Source: an uncultured Bacteroidales bacterium
Lineage (GTDB): Bacteria > Bacteroidota > Bacteroidia > Bacteroidales > Bacteroidaceae
Direction: 5' to 3'
DNA length: 34,873 nt
Assembly: GCA_902776455.1 (NCBI GenBank)
Contig: CACYQI010000023.1
Location: forward strand, 1 to 34,873
The translations under genes were made by a program, and so were the position numbers. Position 1 is the first letter of the stretch. Each line of letters begins with the position of its first letter. The notes under the pieces are model-generated. The model ran no database searches. It saw only the letters and a list, made by a program, of their open reading frames with translations, and was not told the DNA's origin. Positions 2 through 33,490 of the stretch are shown here, in pieces.

Positions 2-616
2 ATGAGCGTCTTCATCTCCGTCGCCTTCTACTTCATCGGCACAGGTCTCTACACGTTCTACAAGACGCACCCCCAGAGCCTCGACATCACGATGCAGCAA
101 GGCGACGCCATCTTCCCGTACTTCATGATGAGCCAGATGCCCGCAGGCGTAGCCGGACTGCTGATTGCCGCCATCTTTGCAGCCACGATGAGCACGATAT
201 CGAGCAACATCAACTCCGTCTCGACAGCCTTCAGCGTGGACTTCATCCAGCGGTTCCGTCCCTCAATCAAGGACGCGACGCTTCTTCGTGTAGCCCGTTG
301 GACGTGTATCGTCAGCGGACTGATGGGCTTGGGAATCGCCTTGCTGATGGCCACATGGGACATCGCCTCGCTACTCGACTACTTCAACACCATCCTCGGC
401 CTGCTGACGAGCGGCCTCGGAGGCCTCTTCGTGATGGCCGTCTTCTTCCCGCGCATCAAGGGACGAGCCGCCCTGACAGGCTTCATCGCAGGCGAACTGG
501 TCGTCTTCCTCATGTACCTCTACACGGACGTCAACTTCTTCCTCTTCGGAGCAACAGGAATTGTAGTGAGCGTTATCACAGCATGGCTTGTCAGTCATGC
601 TGTAAGTGAAAAGTGA
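2..616 (+). CDS. Sodium:solute symporter (SSS family), 3' part only
   Basis: This is the C-terminal ~204 residues of an inner-membrane Na+-coupled symporter. The window cuts off the 5' end, so the Met at position 2 is probably internal, since family members run ~480-600 residues. Several hydrophobic segments are visible, and the stretch around residues 40-75 (PAGVAGLLIAAIFAATMST followed by NSVSTAFSVDF) matches the conserved late transmembrane region of the family. The next gene is an N-acylglucosamine 2-epimerase, so sialic acid or an N-acetylhexosamine is the likely substrate, but that is inferred from context. The last codons (VSEK, stop) lie in a short-repeat array that continues beyond the stop. 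Confidence 0.85.
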   Translation: MSVFISVAFYFIGTGLYTFYKTHPQSLDITMQQGDAIFPYFMMSQMPAGVAGLLIAAIFAATMSTISSNINSVSTAFSVDFIQRFRPSIKDATLLRVARWTCIVSGLMGLGIALLMATWDIASLLDYFNTILGLLTSGLGGLFVMAVFFPRIKGRAALTGFIAGELVVFLMYLYTDVNFFLFGATGIVVSVITAWLVSHAVSEK

Positions 617-648
617 ATAGTGAAAAGTGAAAAATCAAAGATACAAAG
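604..648 (+). repeat. AGTGAAA-type short-repeat array, solo copy of the four-helix cassette left end
   Basis: Tandem AGTGAAA/AGTGAAT units end in AATCAAAGATACAAAG. The same order (AAGTGAATAGTGAAAAGTG, more units, then AATCAAAGTTACCAAA) occurs at 28270-28314, ahead of the four-helix-bundle gene. Here no such gene and no facing TTTCACT array follows. The array begins inside the symporter gene and supplies its stop codon. Read on the minus strand, the end contains TATCTTTG, which fits a Bacteroidota -7 box. Confidence 0.7.
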
Positions 649-10037: not shown

Positions 10038-13000
10038 TTATTTGATAATATACTTCTTTCCTTTTCTAATATAAATAGTGTTGGGCTTCACGTCGCTAAC
10101 CCTGCGGCCTGTGAGGTCGAAGCAGGCAGATGGATTGCTGTTATCGGAGTTGTCGGAGTATTCTGAGCAATCTGAAAAGTCTGAAATCTCTTCGATGCTG
10201 TCGATGATTTCATCGGTTAGGTCGCCGACGATGGTGCCGAACTTTGCCCAACTCGATGCCTGATACTTGGCGAGAGCGCTGGCATAGACGTGGATGGTGG
10301 GGTTGCTGTTGAAGATGTAGTCCGCGAGGGACGGGGGCGTGAGTGCTTTGACATAGACATCCTTGACGGGCGAGTTGTAGAAGACGCCTTGGCTCAAGCT
10401 CGACACCTTCCCTCCGATGATGACAGTCGTGAGCCGCTCGCTGCCGCCGAAGGCTTCGAGGCCGATGGAGGTGACGGCATCGGGAATCTGTATCATCCTA
10501 AGCCCCGAGAAGCGGAAAGCCCTTTCCTCTATCTTCGTAGTCCTGAGAGGCAAACGCATGGCAACGAGGTTCTTGAAGTTGTCGAAAGCGTAGGGACCAA
10601 TCACGTTGAGCGTCGTGGCGTAGTTCTGGTAATAGGTATAGGTGCCTGACGTCACTCGGGCGCCTTCGATGTCTATCGCCTGAAGGTTTCCTTCCGTGAG
10701 GAGCTGGCGCAAATACTTGATGTCCTTGCCGTTGATGCTGCCGGTGATGGTCGCCTTGATGGCTTTGGCTGAGAGCGAATCCTGCAGGACGCCCGCCCTC
10801 GGCATGGCCACGTATTCCGCGCCGCTGCCTGCCCTTGCGATTTCGTGGAGCGAGCCGTCGGCGTCGAGAGAGTAAAGTTGAAAGTTAAGAGTTGAGAGTT
10901 GAGAGGCCGGGATGCAGAAGTTCTTGGCGTTGGCAGCGAACAGGAGGTTGCCGAACTCGTCGAGAGCCATGAAGCCCAAGCCGCCTTCGCCATCAAGGGC
11001 ATAGAGCGAGTCGGCACTCAGATAGGTATAGGACGAAGGCGCACATGCTCCGGGCAGATAGGTGGTGTACTGTCCTACGTTGCCGCATTGGCCCACCTGT
11101 TCCGAGTCGCGCCGCTTTTTGCCGGCTGTGGTGAGGAAGTCCGTGGTGAGCACATAGTCGGCACGGTCTTCGATGAAGAGTATTTCGCGGTTCTTCTTTG
11201 GGTACTTCGCGATGTCGGCCAACGTGTTGTCTATGTCGGCCTGCCGCACGGTCATGGAGTGCGCGCCGTAGTCGTTGACGGTATAGTTCGTGAGCGGTTC
11301 GAAAAAGCCCCACACGCGGAAGAAGTCGGTGAGGTCTTCCCCGGCGACCTCGCACACCTTGCGGACGAACTTCAGACAGCCGCTGTTGGAGCTGTAGAGG
11401 GTGAGCGGGTCGGCTCGGAGTGCCTTGAAGAGTTCGGGATAGAACGAGGTATTCCGCTGGGCCAGATGGTAGTAGAGATAGAGTTGCCAGTACATGCGCA
11501 TCTGACTGTCAAGGGGACGTGTGAAGAAAGGCTCATGGTGCATGTACTCGTCCATGATGGTGGAGAGGGGCGAGCCGCTGGAGGTGACGAGTCCTGTGTG
11601 GAAGCGGATGTAGTTGGAGAAGAGGTTGTTCGAGACTTCCGTACCGCCTTCTACGGTGATAGCGCCCTGGTTGTTGTGTCCGCACTCGTGGGCTGCGCAC
11701 CATTCGTCGAAGGTAGCCGTCTTGTTTACGTTGAAGGAACTTTCGACGCAGCCGTTGTACATCGTCCTGAAGGAAGCGGAGTTAGCATAGCCGCCATCTG
11801 TCGTCTCGCCCTCGACGGCGAAGTTCGGGTTGTTGTAGTAAGAGGGGAAAAAGGCCTCGCCGCCTGTTATGAAGAACGGAGCGCCTGCACGACTGCCGGA
11901 AGCCACACTTTCGCAGATGCCCATCAGTTCTTTTTCCCAAACGGTAAGGCTGTCGAACCAGCAGATGCTTTTGTCGATGGAGGAAGGCCAAGCCGACCGA
12001 TAGGTGGCCGTCTTGAAGTTGAAGAGCGACTGTCCGCCCTTGACGGTAAAGCGCTCGTGGGTGGCGGCCTTGAGGATAGCCCTGTAGTCGGCGTCGCTCT
12101 TTCGACGGATGTCGTAGTAGCCGTTCACGGTGCCGCCCTCGATGTGTATCTTGATGTCGGGCCACTCGCCGAGGGTCTTGGTCATCGCCTTCGTGTCGGC
12201 TATATATAATATGTAGTAGAGGGCATTCGGTTTGCCTTCCACGATGTTCAGTCCCTTCCCAAGCATTTTGCCCTGTCTGGCAGAAGTGACGAGGTCGTTG
12301 CCTGTGCAGCCGGCGATGTAGAGAGTGGCATCGGCGGGGATGTCGCTATCGACGAAGACGTAGAGCGGGTCGGAATCCTTCGTGTAGATGCCGGTGGGAT
12401 TGCCCATGAAGGAGCCGCCCGTGCTGCGCAGCCTGCTGTTCCAGTAGCCCGCATCGCTGTAGGGGCTGTAGCTGTGGATGCGGAAGTCCTTCTCGTAGGC
12501 CTGCCAGTCGTCGTTCTTCAGTTTGAGGGCGATGGCCTTCATGTAGGAGGGCATGCCGGCTTCTGCCAGCGAGGCCAAGAGTTCCTCGTCGCTCATGGCC
12601 CGATAGTCGGCTTTCAGCTCGGTGCAGGCGGCATCGTCGAAGAACCGACTTGCCAGCGTGCCTGCCACGTCGCTCGAGTCGGATTCCTCGGGATAGAAGT
12701 TCTCCAGCCTCCCCGTTATGTTGCCGTATTGGCTCCACGAGGATGCCTTGTAGTCATCGACGGCACTCGAATAGACGCGTATCGTAGGTCGAGCCGTGAA
12801 GATGTAGGCATCGAGCGAAGGCGGTGTCTTGGGCATCACGGAAGCCGTTGTTATGGCGGAGGAATTGTAGAAGACAGCCTGTTCGAGGTGCGACACCTTT
12901 CTGCCGATGACGACCGTCTTGAGGGAACTGCAGTTGGCAAAGGCCGCTCCGCCCAACCTCGTGACGCCATCGGGGATTTCCACCTTCGTGATGCCGGTGA

Positions 13001-21476: not shown

Positions 21477-21575
21477 AAGAGGTTAGAGGTAAGAGGTTAG
21501 AGGTAAGAGGACACCTTTGCCCCCTCAGCATCCCCAACTATCCTCTAACCTCTAACCTCTAACCACTAACCACAA
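21477..21575. repeat. GGTTAGAG inverted short-repeat element, copy 1
   Basis: GAGGTTAGAGGTAA units face TCTAACC units around a core ACACCTTTGCCCCCTCAGCA followed by TCCCCAACTATCC. The minus-strand sequence at 33373-33490 has the same arms and an alignable core. It lies between the serpin and the glycosidase. Confidence 0.75.
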
Positions 21576-24255: not shown

Positions 24256-24261
24256 ATGAAA

Positions 24262-24356
24262 ATGGTCAATGTTCAATGGTCAACGGTCAATGGTCAATGG
24301 TCAACGGTCAATGGTCAATGGTCAATGGTCAATGGTCAACGGTCAATGGTCAACGG
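24262..24356. repeat. GGTCAAT/GGTCAAC tandem array
   Basis: About thirteen units of AATGGTC/AACGGTC run up to the GT2 stop codon. The array's TTGACC (minus strand) supplies the last bases of the stop. Confidence 0.9.
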
Positions 24357-25385
24357 TCAAAAGACTCTGAGCACGAGGCTTGCCAGCCAGTAGCGCAGGG
24401 AGTAGCAGCGGACGGGTAGCGGCATGAACCTCTCTGCTCGAAGCTGACCGATGCGACGGCGCACTTCTTGGCGGCTGCGGGTCAACAACCAGGCTTTCTG
24501 CAAATAGTCAACCGTAAGCTGCCTGATGCGGCGCTCGAGCACAGGATTCCCAAGCGAATGCAAAGTCTTGATGACGTAATGAATGTCGTCGAGGCGTTTC
24601 TGTACCATGGCAGGCGATTGCGAATGCGTAATGGTGCCCGCATGCTGACGGTAGAAATAAGCCTTCTTCTTCACTTCGACGAGCTTCTCGGCCCTCAGGA
24701 AAAGCAGCGGCGTAAAGAGTTCGTCCTCGTGGAGAAGCCCCGGATGGAAGCGCAAGTTGCCAAGCAACTCACGCTTGAAGACGTAGCAACATGCAGCAGC
24801 GCGGAGGTTGTGGTGAAGGAGGAAGAACTGACCAGAGCTAGACCCCTCTCCATCTCCCCCAAGGGGGAGAGCTTTCGCGGCAGTAAGTCTCCCCTCGTGG
24901 AGAGTTAGAGGGGGTCGAACACTCCCCCTCGGGGGAGACGGAGAGGGGTCTGCCTTGAACAGCACCACGTCGGCTTCTTCTTTCCGCACTTCTCGCAGCA
25001 CAGCTTCGTAGGCAGAGGGGATGAGGCAGTCGTCGGCATCGACAAACTGGATGTAGCGACCGCGGCAGGATTCGATGCCTGTGTTGCGGGCCACTGAGAG
25101 ACCCGCCTGCTCCTGCTGGATAAGCCTCTCTCCTTCCGCCAAAAGGGAGTCGGAAAGCGTCATCCCGTCATCGACCACTATGACTTCGGCTTCGCCTTTC
25201 GCCATAGGAAGCGAGCGGATGCTCTCCAAGCATGCTTGCAGCAGAGCCATCGTCTCGTTGTGGTACGTGACGACGAAAGAGACCAAAGGGTACGTTCCCT
25301 TCAGAGGGGAGCAGGGAGTCGTGGAGTGTGTCAATTGCCAATAAAATAGCTTAGTTTGGGAAGACAAAGATACAACAAAAAACAC
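24357..25385 (-). CDS. Glycosyltransferase family 2 with a repeat-derived insertion
   Basis: This predicted cytoplasmic GT-A glycosyltransferase probably transfers a sugar to a surface polysaccharide or lipid. VSFVVTYHNE starts the nucleotide-binding fold, followed by VIVVDDG (68-74), GLSVARNTGIE and the metal-binding FVDADD (114-119). The ATG at 25385 lies upstream of a TATCTTTG box (25365-25372, minus strand), so translation more likely starts at the in-frame TTG at 25334, which still leaves the fold intact. Residues ~146-182 (PSPSPPRGS ... LGGDGEG) are encoded by a C/G-rich inverted-repeat element inserted in frame. It is divergent from folP. Confidence 0.8.
   Translation of the reverse strand: MFFVVSLSSQTKLFYWQLTHSTTPCSPLKGTYPLVSFVVTYHNETMALLQACLESIRSLPMAKGEAEVIVVDDGMTLSDSLLAEGERLIQQEQAGLSVARNTGIESCRGRYIQFVDADDCLIPSAYEAVLREVRKEEADVVLFKADPSPSPPRGSVRPPLTLHEGRLTAAKALPLGGDGEGSSSGQFFLLHHNLRAAACCYVFKRELLGNLRFHPGLLHEDELFTPLLFLRAEKLVEVKKKAYFYRQHAGTITHSQSPAMVQKRLDDIHYVIKTLHSLGNPVLERRIRQLTVDYLQKAWLLTRSRQEVRRRIGQLRAERFMPLPVRCYSLRYWLASLVLRVF
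24841..24950. mobile_element. C/G-rich terminal-inverted-repeat element inside the GT2 gene
   Basis: The ends GACCCCTCTCCATCTCCCCC and GGGGGAGACGGAGAGGGGTC are inverted over 20 bp with one mismatch. The interior also folds (AAGGGGGAGA; TCCCCTCGTGGAGAGTTAGA). It matches the elements at 30001-30144 and 32120-32215 in end sequence. It keeps the reading frame open and adds ~37 codons. Confidence 0.8.
25365..25372 (-). promoter_or_regulatory. Candidate -7 box of the GT2 gene
   Basis: The box reads TATCTTTG on the minus strand. It is divergent from an identical plus-strand box at 25468-25475, ~95 bp away. The -33 match is weak. Confidence 0.45.
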
Positions 25386-27147: not shown

Positions 27148-27164
27148 GAATGGTTTCGGACCTC

Positions 27165-27253
27165 TCACAACACTTCAGAACACTCAAAACACTCAAAACA
27201 CTCAGATCATTCAAAATACTCAGAACACTCAGATTACTCAGAACACTCAGAAT
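27165..27253 (+). repeat. ACTCAGAACA-type tandem array before pta
   Basis: About eight 10-bp units such as CACTCAAAAC, CACTCAGATC and TACTCAGAAC fill the gap before pta. The same unit is found in frame in both M60 genes, just ahead of their C-terminal tails. Confidence 0.85.
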
Positions 27254-27267
27254 AAAACAACACCACT

Positions 27268-28275
27268 ATGAAACTCATGGAACAAATCATCGCTCGGGCC
27301 AAGTCGCAGAAGCAGCGCATTGTGCTGCCCGAAAGCTTGGAAGAGCGAACCTTGACGGCTGCCGACAAAGCGTTGGCAGACGACCTTGCCGACATCATTC
27401 TCATCGGCGCACAGAAGGACATCTTTGCTCTCGCCGACAAGCTTGGCCTCAAGAACATCGCGAAAGCAACCATCATCGACCCCGCTACAAGCGAGCAGAC
27501 AGAAACCTACGTCCAGCTCCTCTACAATCTGCGAAAGAACAAGGGCATGACCGAGGAGCAGGCTCGCGAGAAGGTGAAGGACCCGCTCTACTACGGATGC
27601 CTCATCATCAAGAACGGCGATGCCGACGGACAGATTTCGGGCGCCCTCTCCACTACGGGCGACACGCTTCGTCCTGCCCTTCAAATCATCAAATGTGCCC
27701 CAGGTGTGAGTTGCGTGAGCGGTGCGATGCTGATGATTACACCTGCCAAGGAATACGGCGAGGACGGCGTGCTGGTGATGGGCGACGTAGCAGTCACCCC
27801 GATGCCCGACGCTAATCAGCTGGCTCAGATTGCTGTCTGCACGGCTCAGACGGCTCGCAGCGTGGCTGGTTTCCAAGAGCCTCGCGTAGCCATGCTCAGC
27901 TTCAGCACGAAGGGAAGCGCAAGCCACGAAGTGGTGGACAAAGTAGTAGAAGCCACGAAGAAAGCCAAGGAAATGGATCCCTCCCTTCAAATCGACGGCG
28001 AACTGCAAGCGGATGCAGCCCTCGTGCCGAGTGTCGGACAGAAGAAGGCACCAGGCAGCCACATTGCAGGCAAGGCGAATGTGCTTGTCGTGCCCTGTCT
28101 CGAAGTGGGCAACATCGGCTACAAGCTCGTCCAGCGCCTTGCCGGAGCCGAAGCCATCGGCCCCATCCTGCAAGGCATCGCCCGCCCCGTCAACGACCTC
28201 AGCCGCGGCTGCTCGGTGGATGATATATATAAGATGATTGCCATCACAGCGTGCCAAGCACAAGATGCTAAGTGA
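27268..28275 (+). CDS. pta: Phosphate acetyltransferase
   Basis: This enzyme converts acetyl-CoA and phosphate to acetyl phosphate, the first step of acetate formation with AckA. It has 335 residues, the short Pta form. Family sequence is clear: RIVLPESLEERTL, DPLYYGCLIIKNGDADGQIS, ALSTTGDTLRPALQ, VMGDVAVTPMPDANQLAQIA, SFSTKGSASH, GELQADAALVP and KANVLVVPCLEVGNIGYKL. The stop codon is the first TGA of an AAGTGAATAG short-repeat array, which opens the four-helix-bundle cassette separating it from ackA. Confidence 0.97.
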   Translation: MKLMEQIIARAKSQKQRIVLPESLEERTLTAADKALADDLADIILIGAQKDIFALADKLGLKNIAKATIIDPATSEQTETYVQLLYNLRKNKGMTEEQAREKVKDPLYYGCLIIKNGDADGQISGALSTTGDTLRPALQIIKCAPGVSCVSGAMLMITPAKEYGEDGVLVMGDVAVTPMPDANQLAQIAVCTAQTARSVAGFQEPRVAMLSFSTKGSASHEVVDKVVEATKKAKEMDPSLQIDGELQADAALVPSVGQKKAPGSHIAGKANVLVVPCLEVGNIGYKLVQRLAGAEAIGPILQGIARPVNDLSRGCSVDDIYKMIAITACQAQDAK

Positions 28276-28782
28276 ATAGTGAAAAGTGAAAAGTGAAAAA
28301 TCAAAGTTACCAAATTGAGTGCCATGTATGAGAACAACAAATCACCTTTGTCACAGAAGAGCGATGCTTTTTCTGCAAGGGTGATTAAGATGGTACGATT
28401 CTTGAACAAGGAGAAAGACAAATGCCTCAGCTCTGTCTATAATCAGGTTCTGCGTTCAGGAACATCAATCTCTGCTAACATTGGTGAATCACAATTCGCT
28501 CAGAGTCCAGCGGACTTTGTTACTAAACTTCACATTGCACTAAAAGAAGCCAACGAAACGCGCAAGTGGCTCAACATGCTAAAGTCGGCCGATTGTTTGA
28601 CAACAACACAATTCGAAAGCATGAATACCGATTTAAGCGAAATAATAGCCATGCTTATCTCATCAATAAACACATCAAAAAGGAATCAAAGTATAATCAT
28701 TAAATCATAGATATAAAGTGAGGGTGATGACGGAAGAATAAGTAACTCTTATTTTTCACTTTTCACTTTTCACTTTTCACTT
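28270..28782 (+). mobile_element. Four-helix-bundle cassette flanked by inverted short-repeat arrays
   Basis: The left array is AAGTGAATAG plus AGTGAAA units (28270-28300) and ends in TCAAAGTTACCAAA. The right array is TTTTCACTTTTCACTTTTCA and more, 28751-28782, in the facing direction. A single AT-rich gene lies between. The cassette separates pta from ackA and replaces the end of pta. No transposase or target-site duplication was seen. Type 'mobile element' is a hypothesis based on the arms, base composition, and a second left end at 604-648. Confidence 0.6.
28324..28710 (+). CDS. Four-helix-bundle protein (23S rRNA intervening-sequence / Avd-like)
   Basis: This 128-residue all-helical protein has SDAFSARVIKMVRFLNKEK, VYNQVLRSGTSISANIGESQ, FVTKLHIALKEANETRKWLN and MLKSADCL. 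The RSGTSISANIGE and LKEANETRKWL motifs are those of the family found in 23S rRNA intervening sequences and related to Avd of diversity-generating retroelements; these form pentameric bundles that bind nucleic acid. The ATG at 28324 is used; the upstream TTG (28315) lies in the element end. Base composition is visibly more AT-rich than neighbouring pta and ackA. Its function here is unknown. Confidence 0.85.
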   Translation: MYENNKSPLSQKSDAFSARVIKMVRFLNKEKDKCLSSVYNQVLRSGTSISANIGESQFAQSPADFVTKLHIALKEANETRKWLNMLKSADCLTTTQFESMNTDLSEIIAMLISSINTSKRNQSIIIKS

Positions 28783-28789
28783 AAAAACA

Positions 28790-29980
28790 ATGAAGATATT
28801 GGTTTTAAACTGCGGCAGCAGTTCAATAAAGTATGCACTTTACAACATGGACGACCAGTCCGTCATCACCAGTGGCGGCATTGAGAAAATAGGTCTGCCC
28901 GACTCGTTTATAACCGTCAAGCTCAATGGCGAGAAGCACAAGATGGAGCACCCCATAAAGGAACACACCGCAGGCGTGCAGTACATCTTCGAAGTGCTGA
29001 CCAGCGGCGAATACGCTGTCCTTGGGAGTCTCAACGAGCTGGATGCCGTAGGACATCGCATGGTACACGGCGGAGAGAAGTTCAACAAGTCCGTCCGACT
29101 CACTCCCGAAGTGATGGAGGCTTTCGCCGCCTGCAACGACTTGGCTCCCCTCCACAATCCTGCCAACATCAAGGGCGTGAATGCCGTCAAGGCTCTGTTG
29201 CCCGACATTCCGCAGGTTGGCGTGTTCGACACCGCGTTCCATCAGACAATGCCCGACTACGCCTATATGTATGCACTGCCTTACAACCTTTACAAGGAGT
29301 ACGGCGTACGCCGCTATGGCTTCCACGGAACGAGCCATCGCTACGTCAGCCAGCGTGTCTGCGAGTTCCTTGGCTGCAAGCCCGAAGGCAAGCGCATCAT
29401 CACCTGCCACATCGGCAACGGTGCATCGATTGCAGCCGTCAAGGACGGCAAGTGCATCGACACTTCGATGGGTCTCACCCCGCTCGAGGGCCTCATCATG
29501 GGCACACGCAGCGGCGACATCGATGCCGGTGCTGTCACTTACCTGATGGACAAGTTCCAGCTTGACACGAAGGGCATTTCCAACTTGCTCAACAAGAAGT
29601 CGGGCCTTGCAGGCGTGAGCGAACTGAGCAGCGACTTCCGCGACATCTTGGCAGGCATAGCGGCGGGCAACGACAAAGCACGTTTGGCAAAAGAGATGTA
29701 CACCTACCGCATCAAGAAGTACATCGGGGCTTACGCAGCCGCAATGGGTGGCGTTGACATCATCCTCTTCACCGGCGGCGCTGGCGAGAACCAGTGGGAA
29801 GTGCGCGAGGGAGCAACGAATGGACTCGAGTACATGGGCGTCAAGATGGACGTCACGAAGAACCGCAGCTGCCGAGCTACTGAGGCAATTCTCAGCGCCG
29901 ACGACAGCAAGGTGACAGTCTGCTGCATCCCAACCGACGAGGAACTTATGATAGCCCTCGACACACAAGCCCTCTGCTGA
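28790..29980 (+). CDS. ackA: Acetate kinase
   Basis: This enzyme converts acetyl phosphate and ADP to acetate and ATP. It has 396 residues. Motifs are LVLNCGSSSIKYALYNM at the N-terminus, VGHRMVHGGEKF, VGVFDTAFHQTMPDYAYMY, RRYGFHGTSHRYVSQR, THIGNG-like CHIGNGASIAAVKDGKCID, GTRSGDIDAG and ILFTGGAGEN. It would normally be adjacent to pta, but the four-helix cassette intervenes, and the right array ends 7 bp before the ATG. This may affect pta-ackA coupling. Confidence 0.97.
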   Translation: MKILVLNCGSSSIKYALYNMDDQSVITSGGIEKIGLPDSFITVKLNGEKHKMEHPIKEHTAGVQYIFEVLTSGEYAVLGSLNELDAVGHRMVHGGEKFNKSVRLTPEVMEAFAACNDLAPLHNPANIKGVNAVKALLPDIPQVGVFDTAFHQTMPDYAYMYALPYNLYKEYGVRRYGFHGTSHRYVSQRVCEFLGCKPEGKRIITCHIGNGASIAAVKDGKCIDTSMGLTPLEGLIMGTRSGDIDAGAVTYLMDKFQLDTKGISNLLNKKSGLAGVSELSSDFRDILAGIAAGNDKARLAKEMYTYRIKKYIGAYAAAMGGVDIILFTGGAGENQWEVREGATNGLEYMGVKMDVTKNRSCRATEAILSADDSKVTVCCIPTDEELMIALDTQALC

Positions 29981-33372: not shown

Positions 33373-33490
33373 TTGGGGGGTTAGGGGTTAGAGGTTAGGG
33401 GTTAGAGGATAGTTGTGGATGTTGATTTGGAGCCAAAGGTATTCTCTAACCCTTAACCTCTAACCACTAACCTCTACTCTAACCTCTATT
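33373..33490. repeat. GGTTAGAG inverted short-repeat element, copy 2
   Basis: GGGTTAGAGG units face CCTCTAACC units around the core GGATAGTTGTGGATG then GGAGCCAAAGGTATT. On the minus strand it aligns with 21477-21575. It fills the gap between adk and obg. Confidence 0.75.
33434..33441 (-). promoter_or_regulatory. -7-like box in the short-repeat core upstream of obg
   Basis: TACCTTTG on the minus strand, ~70 bp before the obg ATG. Copy 1 of the element has CACCTTTG here. It could drive obg-pgeF-M23 or be chance. Confidence 0.4.

Follow-up and report, generated by a model that had tools for sequence, protein, structure and literature searches.

The window, the whole 34,873-nucleotide stretch of DNA that was analysed, contains a small cassette between two host genes. 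The upstream gene (27268..28275, + strand) and the downstream gene (28790..29980, + strand) are identified as open reading frames with homologues, and their names, pta and ackA, are those given in the first-pass annotation. The left (5') array (28270..28299, +) was found by TRF and from sequence positions and has four AGTGAA(A/T) units with a period of 7; AGTGAA copies start at 28271, 28278, 28285 and 28292. The pta stop codon TGA (28273-28275) falls within the first of these units, and the unit supplies the stop codon. Next is the left inner end AATCAAAGTTACC (28299..28311, +), read from the sequence, which pairs with the right inner end GTAACTCT (28742..28749, +). Between the inner ends is a four-helix-bundle gene of family PF05635 / TIGR02436 (28324, ATG, to 28710, +; alternative TTG start at 28315), assigned from its open reading frame, profile matches and fold. 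The right (3') array (28753..28782, +), also from TRF and sequence positions, has four TTTCACT units that face the left array with a period of 7, and TTCACT copies start at 28755, 28762, 28769 and 28776. The ATG of ackA at 28790 is seven bases past the end of this array at 28782. The GC content of the cassette gene is 39%, compared to 58% for pta and 56% for ackA. The first-pass annotation had described AGTGAAA arrays on the left and TTTCACT arrays on the right enclosing exactly one AT-rich gene of this family, with the left array beginning at the pta stop and the right array ending 7 bp before ackA. The TRF arrays, the positions, the base composition and the single family open reading frame between the arrays agree with this description in every part.

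Aligning the left flank of the cassette (L008) against the reverse complement of its right flank results in a score of 69. The same-genus sliding controls reach a maximum of 26, and 0/240 reach 30. The predicted fold of the cassette RNA has a closing stem of 8+24 pairs with 6 more pairs inside (z = -5.4), and 0/100 shuffles are as stable. A model with five units wrapping a pentamer was dropped, since this cassette has four units per arm. An rRNA origin for the cassette was rejected: no Rfam family reaches its gathering score in the window, and the site is between pta and ackA. Elsewhere, 20 named loci selected among those without a clear array score held no rRNA, and only an SAH riboswitch was found, in L201. 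The window also has a 9-bp CTCAGAACA array at 27164-27252, before pta. This array is largely missing in G005 (L126), where the aligned blocks meet to within a few bases.

The cassette protein (P0001) matches PF05635 with an E-value of 3.4e-22 (79.1 bits; curated cut-off 33.8) and TIGR02436 with an E-value of 3.4e-27 (94.8 bits; cut-off 24). PF05635 was the sole match in the Pfam search, which returned no catalytic family. An AF2 model of the protein has a pLDDT of 92.6. In a Foldseek search, this predicted structure resembles BT_0352 (2rld, 1.3e-7) and XCC0516 (2gsc, 5.8e-4), and its resemblance to Avd (4dwl, 8ub7) is lower, with an E-value of 0.02 and weaker and TM values of 0.64-0.71. The NCBIfam Avd profile has no match listed for P0001. 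Weak Avd profile matches are seen for two other family genes of the same genome, L001 (26.6 bits against a cut-off of 80) and L004. The S23p protein of Xanthomonas is a toroidal homopentamer (PMC4990558).

The PF05635 profile has 12 matches in the 3.39-Mb assembly of the same genome, and 12/12 of these genes sit between facing short arrays as judged by eye. The units mostly differ from gene to gene, for example GATTAAA (L003), GGGGCAA (L004), AATTCAY (L005) and AGTTGAA (L007). Four of the genes (L009-L012) form a long subclass with open frames of 242-291 aa in which PF05635 matches only a part. Their units are about 9-10 bp long and include palindromes such as CTATAG, ACTAGT, CCTAGG and AACGTT; therefore, the length of the unit seems to go with the protein subclass. 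In an ORF-based flank test, 11/12 of the genes score 38-69, and none of the 408 mismatched pairs exceeds 29. The exception is L001, with 16 in this test, probably owing to a more distant right array, and 29 in a test anchored on the protein match.

The main flank test, a local alignment of the left flank against the reverse complement of the right flank, was anchored on the protein match and used a threshold of 30. It detects facing arrays at 28/30 same-genus loci, at 41/69 loci from the own genome, family and phylum and at 55/80 named loci; 2/30, 28/69 and 25/80 loci fall below the threshold. Sliding-control pseudo-cassettes reach 30 in 0/240, 0/345 and 1/400 cases (Fisher p < 1e-35 for each set). 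These sets hold the best-scoring 30 loci per search and the best 80 of 587 named loci, and 8/30 same-genus loci are pta-ackA copies and not independent. The sliding control was used since the mismatched control of the same-genus set is inflated (mean 22.6, max 69) because many of its loci have AGTGAA-like units in common. The earlier ORF-based test relied on the nearest ATG and stop and under-counted, with 21/30 same-genus loci at 30 or above; it left out L063 (21-bp flank), and the anchored test left out no locus. The long subclass L009-L012 escapes the anchored test, with scores of 16-18, but reaches 38-45 in the ORF-based one.

The named set spans Proteobacteria, Bacteroidota, Planctomycetota, Acidobacteria, Clostridia, candidate phyla and Methanophagales archaea. 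Periodic 28-bp windows occur in 73/160 named-set flanks compared to 10/320 control flanks. The period is 7 (with 14) in 55/73 of the periodic named-set flanks and 7 in 9/10 of the periodic control flanks. Homologues were also found in 25 plasmid records, of which 9 were fetched. In all nine, arrays can be seen by eye on at least one side of the gene; these nine come from Treponema, Bernardetia, Nostoc, Euhalothece, Planktothrix, Chlorohelix and Monoglobus. Two of the loci in Nostoc plasmids (L138, L141) have the gene beside xisH/xisI genes. The arrangement on which the first-pass annotation had built its proposal thus recurs at family genes elsewhere, and the association of gene and arrays is common but not universal. 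The arrays and the gene are almost certainly a real unit.

The unit and the protein covary only weakly. Among 58 array-confirmed loci out of 97, the mean array similarity between different loci rises from 0.16-0.18 (protein identity <35%) to 0.32 (>55%, 60 pairs), and different units are possible even in proteins that are 60% identical. Carriage by viruses was rejected, as P0001 has no relative in viral_contigs and the two loci from phage records (L145, L146) have no heptamer arrays by eye in the printed flanks. The homologues in these two records are beside longer-unit repeats, GTGATATT or TGAAAT alternating with small hairpins. It is possible that these repeats are another form of the same element.

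Relatives differ in what lies between pta and ackA. A pta match was found in 56 genomes and 50 junctions were read, a number that includes two without readable sequence (L243, L246); L015 runs off its contig. Eight of the 50 contain the cassette, including a decayed copy in G037 and one cut by a contig end in G036. Two (G060, G019) contain gene-less facing arrays of other units, four contain other inserts, and 34 are 16-86 bp long. The short junctions of G005, G035 and G053 have an apparent remnant of the right array. Two more pta-ackA cassettes, in G042 and G070, were met in other searches. The G042 cassette has ATGACGA-type units in both arms instead of AGTGAAA and retains the inner end AGTAACC, so the two arms change together. 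The unit is present or absent at this junction as a whole. Neither of the two observations that the first-pass annotation had named as grounds for rejecting its proposal was made: the junction varies among relatives, and family genes elsewhere do have arrays. The filled and empty junctions are too diverged to define a target-site duplication or the exact insertion boundary, and in the fetched stretches the window aligns with relatives only over about 25.5-30 kb at 74-89% identity.

In a protein tree, from which the decayed L273 was left out, the nine junction cassettes do not form one clade (AU p 3e-5), and L256 and L252 from other places fall among them. The p-value weakens to 0.03 if the group includes L061, a neighbour of ackA in a different genus, and to 0.14 if L252 joins it as well. 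Relocation of the junction cassettes is therefore likely, but the case is not overwhelming. The L252 cassette itself is between two diverged copies of a gene read as lpxH and has long heptamer arrays on its right. We infer that the unit moves, and it probably spreads through genomes.

The window has two gene-less hairpins of the same kind. One has the unit GAGGTTA (21477..21571; arms 21477-21510 and 21538-21571, core 27 bp) and the other belongs to the GAGGTTA class (33377..33488; arms 33377-33412 and 33444-33488, core 31 bp). The cassette's own unit occurs in a one-sided AGTGAAA array found by TRF at 604..633 (+), which has the inner end AAATCAAAGATAC and no facing partner within 700 bp. The first-pass annotation had taken the other inverted arrays of the window to be gene-less relatives of the cassette. 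This holds for their kind, as both hairpins are clear, but they carry GAGGTTA and are not copies of the AGTGAAA cassette. Separately, the window has 14 AATGGTC copies at 24261-24360, without a facing partner in the inverted-array scan.

Gene-less relatives do exist when more of the genus is considered. In 435 kb of genus sequence (the window, 13 stretches of the own genome and 7 of G012) there are many inverted array pairs with gaps of 22-39 bp, and others with gaps of gene size. In the small period-7 hairpins (n=16), the median length is 31.5 bp for the arms and 29.5 bp for the cores. Cores resemble one another within a unit class: among 13 cores, hand-picked by unit class from the hairpins found, the 16 same-unit pairs score 10-40, and 11 of these score above all 62 other pairs (8-16). 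Across 729 kb from the genus, inverted pairs that are 300-1000 bp apart have the gene inside in five cases (the window, L109, L112, L117, L124), most of them on contigs picked for bearing such a gene or pta, and have no gene in five. Four of the latter overlap in one repeat-rich region of L105 and the fifth is a weak pair in L120. The L105 region (10242-10999) has two facing blocks of repeats of about 88 bp, which are made of 9-bp units (ACGGATTTA, CAGATTAAG), and the blocks enclose no four-helix-bundle gene. In gene-rich phylum genomes, where stretches were picked regardless of gene position, 2/2 gene-sized inverted pairs hold the gene.

The cassette unit is dispersed through its own genome, with 58+66 occurrences (overlapping matches) compared to 13+11 for a reversed control. 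The motif AGTWAC is within 22 bp on the inner side at 14/26 AGTGAAA sites (12/24 without the two ends of the cassette itself) and on the outer side at 0/26. The AAATCAAAGTTAC sequence of the left inner end is found again at 10 further AGTGAAA arrays in the own genome, and a sequence like the right inner end is at the same place in the gene-less hairpin L100:11293. A local alignment of the cassette inner ends against the hairpin cores gave no consistent same-unit match and was not significant by unit class. Of the 26 AGTGAAA sites, 5 have a partner array facing them within 700 bp and the other 21 lack one. At many of the array sites L337-L366, CGCCTTCGGCGA, which is able to form a UUCG-loop hairpin, precedes the array. 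Within 700 bp, most of these arrays lack a facing partner, and several of the arrays continue into TTGTAAATAGCTAAATTA-type sequence.

The explanation that we prefer, with moderate confidence, is that the cassette is the gene-bearing member of an undescribed and widespread class of dispersed, probably mobile, element, in which the gene is enclosed by a stem and the gene-less hairpins are non-autonomous. The first-pass annotation had suggested that the arrays are the ends of a mobile unit and that the protein acts on them. The arrays and gene do behave as one unit that is present or absent as a whole; the part in which the arrays serve as transposing ends and the protein acts on them is still a matter of deduction. 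An action of the protein on its own arrays, presumably by binding, is more likely than not.

The orientation of the gene is tied to that of its host genes. Among 137 loci (57 survey, 80 named), as judged by a simple reading of the longest open frames, the gene has the direction of both neighbours in 76 cases and the opposite direction to both in 4 (p 3e-18); in 3/137 the neighbours are on opposite strands, and the rest are unclear on at least one side. The arms of an inverted pair are symmetric, so an insertion of DNA should orient the gene at random. The bias therefore suggests an RNA-level step or selection for read-through expression. The neighbours themselves vary by locus, and include pta and ackA, accB and accC (Xanthomonas, as read), a restriction subunit S gene and hsdR, and DISARM drmD and BREX pglX. 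In L142, L143 and L144 the surroundings of the gene are of defence type: its neighbours are a restriction subunit S gene and hsdR, drmD and pglX, and a DUF1156 protein gene and a Swt1 HEPN gene, respectively.

The co-direction with host genes and the predicted RNA stem could also be expected from a fixed regulatory module, in which the protein binds array RNA and tunes or processes the transcript of the host operon and the gene-less arrays are its targets in trans. Translational regulation has been proposed for TAACTGA arrays (PMC4679880), which is consistent with such a role. However, a fixed module is difficult to reconcile with neighbours that change from locus to locus, with a cassette at only 8/50 junctions when 34 are 16-86 bp long, and with the decayed copy in G037, and it is unlikely to be the explanation.

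The abundance of arrays follows the presence of the gene. In the same genus, 2 period-7 arrays were counted in 196.5 kb of four gene-free genomes, and 157 in 929.5 kb of 14 genomes with the gene (Spearman 0.55, p 0.019); 92 of the 157 are from the own genome. Some stretches were taken near cassettes, and this choice favours the gene-bearing side. The genomes of the gene-free sample have no PF05635 match, with G056 only 62% complete; G009 and G039 are gene-free but outside the sample. At the phylum level, 20 stretches from 14 gene-rich genomes have 13 arrays of period 7/14 and 3 inverted pairs, compared to 3 and 0 in 20 stretches from 13 gene-free genomes. When all arrays of period 6-14 are counted the numbers are 30 and 28, and only period 7/14 differs.

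These counts bear on the idea that the arrays came first, with heptamers arising from replication slippage and hairpin templating and the gene inserted as a passenger by unrelated means. A polymerase-slippage hypothesis for heptamers is cited in PMC4692102, and in this genus the gene-less and one-sided arrays outnumber the gene-bearing ones. Yet the four sampled gene-free genomes of the genus have very few period-7 arrays, both gene-sized facing pairs in the gene-rich genome stretches hold this gene, and the conservation extends to inner ends and cores and not to units alone. An origin in which the arrays came first therefore seems improbable. A mobile element with gene-bearing and gene-less members continues to be the preferred reading.

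Known enzymes were considered as partners of such an element. A search for RVT_1 gave no match in the own genome (12 family genes, 87% complete), in G051 (17 genes), or in G005, G045, G046 and G059 (9 each), and a reverse transcriptase as partner is therefore unsupported. Y1_Tnp has no match in 38/61 genus genomes and three partial matches in the own genome (E 2e-5 to 4e-4) on contigs other than that of the cassette, so a Y1 transposase is likewise unsupported; both absences are judged on assemblies that are 61-97% complete. An element driven in trans by a DGR-like reverse transcriptase or a RAYT/IS200-like Y1 transposase would fit the fold in common with Avd, the weak Avd profile matches of L001 and L004, hairpin ends that recall REPs and the partial Y1_Tnp matches, but given these missing or partial matches, in assemblies that are incomplete, it is the least probable of the alternatives and very unlikely.

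The comparison with these systems is still informative. In REP/RAYT (REPIN) systems, one gene is flanked by inverted short repeats and many dispersed gene-less repeats have the same ends. The cassette is similar in layout and in the AGTWAC inner end of its dispersed sites, though the alignment of ends to cores gave no match. It differs in having no Y1 transposase and in having ends made of 7-bp unit arrays whose units vary from gene to gene. Avd works in diversity-generating retroelements as an accessory protein. The cassette protein appears to have the fold of Avd in its model, and some family members match the Avd profile weakly, but here the genome has no RVT_1 match and the NCBIfam Avd cut-off is missed.

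Among known systems, the cassette unit is best read as an intergenic counterpart of the 23S rRNA intervening sequences (IVSs) that carry an S23p ORF, such as the 428-nt IVS of Coxiella (PMC4990558). The two are alike in protein family, in similar total length, in patchy distribution and in having the ORF in a terminal inverted-repeat stem, which is 28 bp in the IVS and about 32 pairs in the cassette. The cassette differs in that it lies between protein genes and not in rRNA, its arms are tandem heptamers with locus-specific units, and it has dispersed gene-less derivatives. PMC4990558 cites a theory (Ralph and McClelland 1993) in which IVSs were mobile elements.

Cyanobacterial heptamer repeats have the name STRR. 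If heptamer arrays belong to this class of element, then XCC0516 should lie between facing GGGAATC arrays. PMC4692102 describes 186 GGGAATC arrays in X. campestris, with 70 cases of convergent pairs and a preference for four units, and states that the role of GGGAATC "remains to be elucidated". The homologue of XCC0516 in X. vasicola (L147, 82% identical), a frameshifted gene with neighbours read as accB and accC, is preceded by GGGAATC-type units and followed by their complement immediately ahead of the accC start. The predicted arrangement is therefore present in the one Xanthomonas genome tested, with arrays read by eye that the automatic flank test scored at 18 and missed.

The GGGAATC (Xanthomonas) and GGGGATT (Nostoc) repeats described in PMC4692102, which also mentions heptanucleotides in Calothrix, are like the cassette arrays in having a 7-bp unit and being mostly intergenic, and GGGAATC is also alike in its roughly four units and convergent pairs. 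The TAACTGA repeat of Beggiatoaceae, cyanobacteria and Bacteroidetes (PMC4679880) likewise has a 7-bp unit and is mostly intergenic. The terms "four helix" and "S23" are absent from the main text of both papers, which thus leave the arrays unconnected to the protein family by those names. A link between the family and heptamer arrays was not found in literature titles and abstracts (including PMC8700078, PMC3936711 and PMC10053308), a coverage that excludes most subscription journals. An undescribed element class, with its unit of gene and arrays seen across many bacteria, is the best reading of these results.

The element would consist of a four-helix-bundle gene inside a long stem, the arms of which are tandem arrays that face each other and repeat a unit of about 7 bp. 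The gene-less hairpins, with two arms of about 31 bp and a core of about 30 bp, would be non-autonomous derivatives, as REPs are to the RAYT gene. The protein, as a relative of the ring-forming XCC0516 and of Avd, may bind the array in RNA form or as a single-stranded DNA hairpin, and this binding might promote the copying of the hairpin into new sites by host enzymes. The stem could make an insertion between co-transcribed genes harmless, perhaps through RNase III processing as in rRNA IVSs.

A broader version of this proposal is held tentatively, at slightly less than even odds. It describes a pan-bacterial mobile class without a transposase, in which a ring-forming protein would recognize an array of about 31 bp as RNA or hairpin DNA and host enzymes would copy it, with or without the gene, into transcribed intergenic sites. 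The rRNA IVSs might then be members that landed in rRNA stems, and the heptamer repeats (STRR, GGGAATC, TAACTGA) might be gene-less progeny.

If true, this would define a class of mobile element without a recognisable transposase or reverse transcriptase, which raises the question of mechanism. A rule for annotation could follow, since genes with the name "four helix bundle protein" may in many cases belong to elements and not to the operons that they split. The proposal would also give one answer to two puzzles, the role of the S23/IVP four-helix-bundle proteins and the origin of over-represented heptameric intergenic repeats, and so offers an origin for the long-unexplained 7-bp repeats that are scattered in bacterial genomes.
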